Below, piece by piece: positions 20,308 to 58,864 of a stretch of 64,000 bases of DNA. Numbering within the stretch: position 1 is the stretch's first letter; each line of letters opens with the position of its first letter. The notes under the pieces are model-generated. The model was not told the origin of the DNA and searched no databases. It saw only the letters and a program-made list of their open reading frames with translations. Where the stretch lies: positions 1,178,001 through 1,242,000 of the forward strand of contig NZ_CP046244.1 in assembly GCF_009735625.1 (NCBI RefSeq), given 5' to 3'. The DNA comes from Moorella glycerini (GTDB lineage Bacteria > Bacillota > DSM-521 > Neomoorellales > Neomoorellaceae). Both the position numbers and the translations under genes were made by a program.

Positions 20308-20688
20308 CTATTTGATTTCCACAGTGGCGCCGGCTTCTTCCAGCTTGGCCTTGATGCTTTCGGCTTCCTCTTTGCTGATCTTTTCTTTAACCGGCTTGGG
20401 AGCGTTGTCTACCAGTTCTTTGGCTTCTTTGAGGCCCAGGGCGGTAATTTCGCGGACCACCTTGATGACGTTAATCTTCTTGTCGCCGGCGGACTTCAGG
20501 ATGACGTCAAATTCAGTCTGCTCCTCAGCCGGGGCTTCAGCCGGGGCTGCTGCTCCCGGGGCTACGGCCATGGCTACCGGCGCGGCAGCGCTGACGCCAA
20601 ATTCTTCTTCCAGGGCCTTAACCAGTTCGGCGAGTTCCAGGACCGTCAAACCTTTGACGGCTTCGATAATTTCTTGAACTTTGCTCAT
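20308..20688 (-). CDS. rplL: 50S ribosomal protein L7/L12
   Basis: 126-residue L12, the flexible stalk protein present in several copies per ribosome that recruits translation GTPases. An N-terminal dimerisation helix, an Ala/Pro-rich hinge (about residues 36-56) and a C-terminal domain with EKTEFDV-like and [21 protein letters not shown] sequence are visible. It is separated from rplJ by 299 bp that carry a dispersed structured repeat. Confidence 0.98.
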
Positions 20689-20745
20689 GATTGAGAGTCA
20701 CTCCTCCTCTGAAAATCATTCTACCCTGAAAATAACTTCGTTCCA

Positions 20746-20956
20746 GGCTGGCATTGTTTTTGCTCGCTCCCTGGTCCTCGCGGATCAGCCTACGGCTCAG
20801 CCAGGGCTTAAGGCGGGGTTCCCGGCCTATTCGGCATCCTTGCCTTTAGAAGCCGGCCGAAGGCCTCGCTGTCCTCGGCCCCGCCCTCGCTCCTCGGCTT
20901 CGCCAAGGCTGCTTAACCGCTTGGACCAAGTCGCTCGCTTCAAACAAATGCCAGCC
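20746..20956. repeat. Dispersed structured repeat, copy A (rplJ-rplL spacer)
   Basis: A 211-bp element bounded by terminal inverted repeats GGCTGGCATT (20746-20755) and AATGCCAGCC (20947-20956). A second copy is at 58603-58815, with long identical stretches in the middle. Internal palindromes include AGCCTACGGCT, a GGCC-TA-TTCGGC / GCCGAAGGCC stem and an outer GCGGGG/CCCCGC stem. No open reading frame or transposase is present. It could be a MITE-like element or a mobile structured RNA; the remaining rplJ-rplL spacer shows nothing else. Confidence 0.85.
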
Positions 20957-20987
20957 CTTTGGGTACCGTGTTAGCGGTATGAGGGTC

Positions 20988-21518
20988 TCAAGCTGCTTCT
21001 TCCTTCTTTTTACGAATGGCCTCGAGGACGTAAGTCAGGTTGCGGATATTGCCGGCCAGGACGTTGACCAGCCCGGCCAGGGGAGCCTGGAAGCCGCCCA
21101 CCACTTTAGCCAGGAGCTGTTCGCGGGAGGGCAGGTCGGCCAGGGCCTTGATTTCATCCAGGCCAATAACCCTGCCCTGCAAAACGCCCGCCTTAATCTG
21201 GAAGGTCTTGCTGTTGCGCATTACTTCCGATAAGATTTTGGCCGGTACCGCCGGATCGTTTAAGCTGAAGGCCGCGGCAGTTGGGCCTTCCAGGAAAGGT
21301 TCAAGGGTATCCAGGCCCAATTCCTGCGCGGCCCTGCGCGTGAGGGTATTTTTCACCACTTTAAATTCTACTCCGGCTTCCCGTAACTGCCGGCGTAGCC
21401 TGGTCATTTCAGCTACATTCATTCCCCGGTAGTCGGCCAGGATGGTTACGATGGAATTGCCCATCTTTTCCTTTATTTCGGCGACTGCCGCCACCTTGGC
21501 TTCCCTCTGTTTGTTCAT
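20988..21518 (-). CDS. rplJ: 50S ribosomal protein L10
   Basis: 176-residue L10, the stalk base that anchors L12 dimers and autoregulates its own mRNA. Recognised by [20 protein letters not shown] and the [17 protein letters not shown] stretch. The start at MNKQREAKV has a GGAGGTGGGG site; upstream in-frame codons fall in the leader's attenuator. An L10 leader lies directly before it. Confidence 0.97.
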
Positions 21519-58299: not shown

Positions 58300-58550
58300 C
58301 TTTCCCCTCTTTCTTTTTTATTTTTTATTTAACTACTGCCAAGAGACACCTCCATGGTCTAAGAATCTCCTCCACGTGCTCAGCCTTCCAAGGCGGGTAC
58401 TTTACCTTGTTGAGGCCTGCTTTACAGTTCGTGGTTCCTAAAGGTGTCTGGATCAGACTCCTCCTCGGGCTCCTTGTCCGGCACCAGAGCGAAATCGATC
58501 CTTTTCATGGCAGTGTTTTAACTTATACTATCACCTATTTCATGTGTCGT
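58300..58550 (-). ncRNA. Candidate bridge RNA region in the IS110 left end
   Basis: The non-coding left end has internal stem-loops of the expected kind: a stem with internal loops at 58383-58416 (GCCT..AAGG / CCTT..AGGC) and a simple hairpin GTCTG-ATC-CAGAC near 58446-58458. In characterised IS110 elements such an RNA pairs by its internal loops with donor and target DNA. Its limits and guide sequences are not determined here. Confidence 0.45.
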
Positions 58551-58602
58551 GGAGGGGGCGCCAGCCCCCATGGGGGGCTCCTCCGAAAATAACTCTATTG
58601 CA

Positions 58603-58815
58603 GGCTGGCATTGTCGCGCTCGCTCCCTGGCCCTTGTGGAGCGGCCTAAGGCTCAGCCTCGGGCTTAAGGCGGGGTTCCCGGCCTATTCGGCATCCTTGC
58701 CTTTAGAATCCGGCCGAAGGCCTCGCTGTCCTCGGCCCCGCTTATCATCCCTCAGCTTCGCCCGGGCCGCTTCGCCACTCGGTAGAAGCTCGCTCGCTTC
58801 CGACAAATGCCAGCC
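58603..58815. repeat. Dispersed structured repeat, copy B (next to cysS)
   Basis: 213-bp copy of the element at 20746-20956, with the same terminal inverted repeats (GGCTGGCATT at 58603-58612, AATGCCAGCC at 58806-58815). Next to the ends, both arms changed together relative to copy A: GTTT/AAAC in A, GTCG/CGAC in B. It lies 50 bp beyond the cysS stop and about 40 bp from the presumed IS110 end. Confidence 0.85.
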
Positions 58816-58864
58816 AGGATTTTCATGCCCTCGCTGGTGGCGGCGTGCTGCCATGAGGGAGTCC

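Follow-up and report, generated by a model that had tools for sequence, protein, structure and literature searches.

A dispersed MITE-like element with a TwoAYGGAY-type RNA tip and predicted CsrA-binding hairpins in the rplJ–rplL spacer of Moorella glycerini

The rplJ–rplL spacer of Moorella glycerini holds a palindromic element that we read, with a probability of roughly 0.55, as a non-autonomous, MITE-like mobile element whose payload would be a TwoAYGGAY-type RNA with a predicted CsrA-binding hairpin. Its copies are dispersed, their sites are empty in relatives, their tip is a covarying three-way junction and the tip loops match the CsrA/RsmE consensus. The element is mobile on the scale of species and one of its strands is preferred. 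Positions given below are those of the window, i.e. the whole stretch of 64,000 nucleotides that was analysed; G000 denotes the source genome, other G numbers the sampled genomes and L numbers individual element loci.

Results

The inserted unit between rplJ and rplL

The unit was placed by comparing a filled allele (G002) with the empty alleles of G003, G001, G004, G010, G005 and G006. It is 263 bp long, belongs to subtype A1 and occupies 20723–20985 on the minus strand, with its canonical 5′ end at 20985; the same ends are found in other A1 copies. The closest empty allele (G003) reads GCAGCCTAAGAATTATTTTCAAAGGAG and the filled allele GCAGCTTGAGA/CCCTCATACC...TTTTCAGGGT/AGAATGATTTTCAGAGGAG, which places the insertion at 20723–20985. 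AGA is single in the empty allele (...CTAAGAATT) and double in the filled one, where it appears on the forward strand as TCT at 20720–20722 and again at 20986–20988, the second repeat taking in the final base of the rplJ stop codon. Other A1 copies, too, have AGA at their flanks.

The 211-bp element that the initial annotation had described (20746–20956, minus strand) is real and forms the main rod hairpin, as judged by arm match and fold, with arms GGCTGGCATTTGTTT and AAAACAATGCCAGCC (20746–20760 and 20942–20956; 87% complementary). The inserted unit is larger, however, having a 5′ and a 3′ module outside these 211 bp. The 5′ module is a small hairpin, TACCGCTAACACGGTA (20964–20979, minus), that recurs in A1 and A2 copies; the 3′ module, GTTATTTTC (20728–20736, minus), pairs with GAAAATAAC in other copies. 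The conserved tip, a three-way junction with a TwoAYGGAY-like core (20801–20901, minus), scores 106.9 bits with our covariance model R1, a score obtained for a sequence that is itself in the R1 training alignment. It includes the hairpin GGC-AAGGAU-GCC (20833–20844, minus), whose sequence has a C-ANGGAN-G loop of the CsrA/RsmE type.

Folding of the minus strand gives a single long rod at −129.2 kcal/mol, compared with −86 ± 4.6 for dinucleotide shuffles (z = −9.3); the opposite strand gives −107.1 kcal/mol (z = −5.1). The large hairpin previously proposed from the internal palindromes is borne out, and the strand that carries this structure is the one read as sense in the rpl operon. Downstream lies rplL (L7/L12; 20308–20688, minus) and upstream rplJ (L10; 20988–21572, minus, with a predicted start codon from the listed open reading frame). 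The operon's normal autoregulatory site, the L10 leader RNA (RF00557; 21533–21679, minus), is separate from the insertion, and a reading of the element as an L10 leader was rejected on that ground. The closest L10 in a scan of named genomes, which did not include the window's close relatives, is that of Moorella thermoacetica DSM 21394 (76%). The window also has a T-box leader (RF00230; 61002–61231, minus; 98.2 bits).

A second copy in the window, of subtype A2, lies at 58586–58859 (minus; ends approximate), with its core at 58658–58759 and its loop hairpin at 58690–58701. The terminal repeats and core that had been seen to be shared with this copy, at 58603, are present in both, at 84% identity. 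The covariation near the ends (GTTT/AAAC versus GTCG/CGAC) is likewise real; it corresponds to the distinction between subtypes A1 and A2 and recurs across many copies. Adjoining the second copy, at 58540–58585, is a further palindromic module (CCCCCCATGGGGGCTGGCGCCCCC) that also stands beside copy L019 and resembles the 5′ hairpin of the G009 element described below.

The rplJ–rplL spacer could be read in nine other congeners, and both filled and empty alleles were found. It is ~299 nt in G000 and G002, and 22–40 nt in the six genomes with the empty alleles listed above. In the remaining two the spacer is filled otherwise or differs: G007 has another spacer, of 214 nt, and G009 has an unlike element of ~370 nt with a similar 5′ hairpin module. 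The latter (L096) is a different, independent structured insertion with CTATTTTCAAAGGAG at both ends. The G002 ortholog of our insertion is 92.4% identical, versus 97.1% for rplL and 96.2% for rplJ, and strong constraint on the insertion is thus not apparent. Judged from these alignments, its absence from six of nine congeners and its lower conservation give no reason to think that a particular role in this spacer is strongly selected.

Copies, subtypes and mobility

The possibility that there would be no copies beyond those in the window did not hold: 19 cores in the genome are matched by a covariance model built on the tip, a DNA search there gives 35 matches to the element, and about 6 additional short copies have a rod of only 40 nt. 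Short deletion derivatives are ~130 nt long, and the genus as a whole has dozens of copies. Three subtypes can be told apart. A1 copies are flanked by AGA (...GAAAATAACG-GGCTGGCATTTGTTTGG); A2 copies (...TTTGTCGG) often stand just after AGGAG, with GTTATTTTCGGAGGAG at their 3′ side, followed closely by a start codon; subtype B copies (GGCTGGCTTTAG...) are without modules.

Terminal inverted repeats, multiple copies and the lack of a transposase gene are all features of a MITE, and precise empty sites with target duplication are seen at rplJ–rplL (AGA/AGA) and at the L004 site. The latter is empty in G001, G002 and G003, and the filled allele has CGGAGGAG on the left and CGGGGGAG on the right, flanks whose sequence is consistent with a duplication of the Shine–Dalgarno region. 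The length of the flanking repeat varies by subtype, and AGA may itself belong to the preferred target. Elsewhere, filled orthologous copies differ by block replacements and by nested insertions of another repeat. In some copies this other repeat, also palindromic (CCAGCACTCAC...GTGAGTGCTGG, with AACCAGTTCTTCGGTTTATGCAGTCGCAC), lies within the element or takes the place of its core, as at L020/L018 (G000, near 953.8 kb) and in the G002 orthologs of L005, L012 and L013.

Within the scope of a pattern scan of the genome for terminal inverted repeats, which gave only short-range pairs, we found no transposase with matching ends. The phage records searched held no element copies. One plasmid record has an R1 match (L278:3041–3139, 87.8 bits; NZ_CP061968.1, Klebsiella pneumoniae plasmid unnamed3). 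It falls within an extended inverted repeat of this 27-kb record, which is unannotated; contamination, an assembly fold-back and real transfer are all possible sources of this match.

An RNA structure conserved across the phylum

R1 was built from 34 sequences and applied at E ≤ 1e-4 to a sample of 398 genomes from 267 genera of the phylum. Matches were found in 61 genomes and 44 genera, mostly as several copies and often as at least 10 matches per genome. The model was trained without f67 sequences and finds f67 members at about 1e-16.

For covariation, 24 diverse tips were aligned by sequence only and the structure was predicted with RNAalifold. It comprises 30 pairs, 26 of which have changed on both sides and are still paired. 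Pairing is kept in 93.2% of cells, compared with at most 45% in slid controls, and there are 150 double-change cells versus 39 in shuffles and 15–29 when slid. Covariation thus extends far past the two copies of the window, as the initial annotation had left to be decided. In this structure a long stem leads to a three-way junction from which two hairpins project, and in both of them the loop sequence is kept while the stems change. In the second tip hairpin the loop C-ANGGAN-G is found in 24 of 26 distinct tips across the phylum and is intact in 50 of 53 cores of the genus; in the first, C-ANGGAN-G or C-AGGAN-G is found in most tips, and the GGA loop is kept in 29 of 53 genus copies (lost in about 45%). 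The window copies have one clear loop (AAGGAU), the other hairpin reading ACAGCGAGGCC, without ANGGA.

For 26 of 28 members, it is the canonical strand that has the more stable fold. Selection or bias is thereby shown to be strand-specific, which would hold for single-stranded DNA as well as for RNA, and the preference does not separate the two. Cores can also stand in tandem, ~280–300 bp apart with direct repeats between them, as in G024 (G024:C15:4781 and 5068), G172, G142 (family f6) and L208/L045.

Both halves of the initial proposal, a MITE-like or structured-RNA repeat family, are supported: the first by insertion polymorphism, terminal repeats and a lack of coding content in most copies, the second by the phylum-wide covarying structure and by homology to the Rfam family TwoAYGGAY.

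Loop match to CsrA sites and co-occurrence with csrA

The tip loops match the C-ANGGAN-G apical hexaloop of the CsrA/RsmE consensus, with one such loop in the window copy. CsrA and RsmE bind with high affinity to apical hexaloops of the type CANGGANG, and within polycistrons CsrA can also bind in between genes (PMC4894983). The source genome encodes CsrA (G000:C1:2214964-2215116, E 4.3e-20). Across the sample, CsrA is present in 58 of 61 carriers versus 226 of 337 non-carriers (Fisher p about 1e-6; p about 7e-5 at genus level), an association that is confounded by phylogeny, since relatedness inflates it, and that concerns a protein common to 71% of the sample. The carriers lacking a CsrA match are G021, G155 and G323.

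Orientation and inversion in place

The orientation of each copy relative to its downstream gene was judged by codon usage, with a score for which the window served as training sequence. Of the copies bearing end modules, 32 of the 34 that could be scored run sense to that gene; of the module-free ones, 9 of 18 do so, i.e. without bias; an earlier class rule gave 28 of 28 and 13 of 24 for the same kind of count, and in both the cases are partly orthologous, so that not all are independent, and gene direction follows replication in G000. Amongst orthologous insertions, module copies retain their orientation. A module-free copy is inverted in place at hemW (G000, G002 and G007 versus G003, G004 and G010), and inversion is also seen at the L009/L124 locus and, in another family, in genus g91, where L198 is inverted relative to L199 and L202. 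These last three are each the sole copy detected in their genome and occupy the same locus in three species. The lack of orientation preference in module-free copies and their inversion in place at three loci fit poorly with a strict cis-RNA role.

Upstream of hemW (L116 in G002, L036 and L007, versus L117 in G003 and L131), the module-free copy stands directly before the HIPFC motif of HemW. In either orientation the reading frame stays open across the element and on into HemW, and an ATG lies at or near the junction in 4 of the 5 genomes read; from the reading frame, the element at this locus may encode an N-terminal extension of ~70 residues. The earlier statement that the element has no open reading frame accordingly stands for most copies, which are without coding content, and not for the hemW copies of these related genomes.

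Discussion

We propose that a transposase would move the element as palindromic DNA, and that a sense copy within an operon, such as that between rplJ and rplL, would be transcribed with the mRNA and fold into the long rod. The tip of this rod could bind CsrA, in which case copies could titrate CsrA or recruit it to mRNAs, and the rod itself may also serve as an intercistronic processing or stability element. With one clear CsrA-type loop of two, the rplJ–rplL copy probably has a mild effect on rplJ and rplL.

Another reading is a transposable element acting purely at the DNA level, in which the tip and its GGA loops would be the site of a single-stranded-DNA transposase (IS200/IS605 or REP/RAYT-like) and the RNA would be functionless. 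The terminal and subterminal palindromes, the mobility, the ~130-nt deletion derivatives and the inversions in place all agree with this, as does the direction of nearly all end-module copies of G000 along replication from dnaA at 1.282 Mb. However, the direction of genes in G000 can hardly be separated from that of replication, and the G010 copies L049 and L110 oppose the replication trend, so we do not claim replication-strand specificity, striking as it is in G000. Moreover, no Y1_Tnp match was found in nine carriers (G010, G005, G009, G002, G003, G004, G016, G019 and G021) and G000 has only fragments of Y1 transposases; mobilisation by a Y1/RAYT (IS200/IS605-type) enzyme is not supported. 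The loop also matches a known CsrA site and the element co-occurs with csrA. On balance we regard an exclusively DNA-level element as unlikely, though worth keeping in view.

An intercistronic processing or stability element of the ERIC or Correia kind, at which RNase III cleavage or a block to exonucleases would shift cistron yields without CsrA, agrees with the very stable rod (−129 to −139 kcal/mol) and with sense placement adjoining Shine–Dalgarno sequences. It leaves the phylum-wide conservation of loop sequence and three-way junction unexplained, and such a role is compatible with the mobile, CsrA-binding element proposed here rather than exclusive of it; as the sole explanation we find it improbable. 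A domesticated cis-regulator of rplJ–rplL that sets the L12:L10 ratio, as the sense placement in a stoichiometry-sensitive operon and retention in two species (G000 and G002) might invite, is very improbable given an element that is missing from six congeners (G001, G003, G004, G005, G006 and G010), replaced by another insertion in G009, less conserved than its flanking genes and placed in an operon that already has an L10 leader.

Beyond the reading of the element as a mobile carrier of a TwoAYGGAY-type RNA, a wider and decidedly tentative possibility is a phylum-wide transposable family carrying CsrA-binding hairpins, through which the CsrA regulon and titre would evolve by transposition. 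If this is true, every transposition would provide an operon with one more portable site for CsrA and the cell with one more CsrA sink; and if CsrA binding is real, transposition would here be spreading an RNA site that binds a protein, which is rare. TwoAYGGAY has been an orphan RNA class from a bioinformatic screen, for which we found a CsrA hypothesis and no further biology. Comparison of close species, in which filled sites can be matched to empty ones, shows relatives of this class to be mobile, present in many copies and polymorphic for insertion. The question thereby shifts to whether these are selfish elements, sponges or portable regulatory sites, for which rplJ–rplL with and without the element offers a natural experiment.

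Comparison with known systems

TwoAYGGAY (RF01731, clan CL00106) resembles the element in its long rod with tandem G-A steps, in its three-way junction and in its range within the Clostridia; its two hairpins with A-N-GGA loops recur in most tips of the family found here, the window copies keeping one clear loop. Several members found here match RF01731: L206 at 48.3 bits, above the gathering cut-off of 43 bits, and, below it, L198 (42.7), L202 (40.6), L208 (40.0), L199 (39.2), L204 (35.6) and L209 (35.4). The window and genus copies fall below RF01731: against Rfam the window copies gave no TwoAYGGAY match at gathering, nor did 20600–21100 at E ≤ 5, and with misses at all thresholds used they are relatives through a chain of homology rather than scored members. 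They differ, too, in that the structure here forms the centre of elements that are dispersed and insertion-polymorphic and whose outer stems are specific to the genus. The 2010 screen from which TwoAYGGAY comes lists it as a probable RNA that probably has no cis-regulatory role (Weinberg et al. 2010; PMC2864571); it is typed as cis-regulatory in Rfam. A passage of later work proposes that it binds CsrA and notes the tandem G-A steps in its stem (PMC4333381). Mobility is not mentioned in the passages of these two papers (PMC2864571, PMC4333381), and an earlier report may exist elsewhere.

The reverse complement of Bacillaceae-1 RNA (RF01690) has also been proposed, in a passage of the same source, to carry CsrA sites (PMC4333381). 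Near-cut-off RF01690 matches lie at L208:1227–1287 and L045:1170–1230, on the strand opposite to the TwoAYGGAY match, at 31.2 bits (cut-off 35); a single motif, read from opposite strands, may underlie both families, although the Bacillaceae-1 model is only 67 nt long and its score here is below cut-off.

REP/RAYT and IS200/IS605 elements have hairpin ends and strand asymmetry in common with ours, but most tested carriers here are without a Y1 transposase. ERIC, BOX, Correia and RUP are likewise short palindromic intergenic repeats of transcribed regions, without an open reading frame, with polymorphic insertion and with short forms arisen by internal deletion. To our knowledge, these and other bacterial MITEs are confined to narrow lineages; in the element described here the tip structure is conserved phylum-wide, whilst the ends differ by genus. 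The hemW copy, inside an open reading frame, recalls the Rickettsia palindromic elements in its position, a likeness limited by the intercistronic placement of most copies here. We know of no CsrA sponge RNA established in Gram-positive bacteria. The sponge RNAs CsrB, CsrC and RsmX/Y/Z have GGA hairpin loops of the same CsrA-binding type; theirs are the product of a dedicated sRNA gene, whereas here two loops are carried by copies dispersed in operons.
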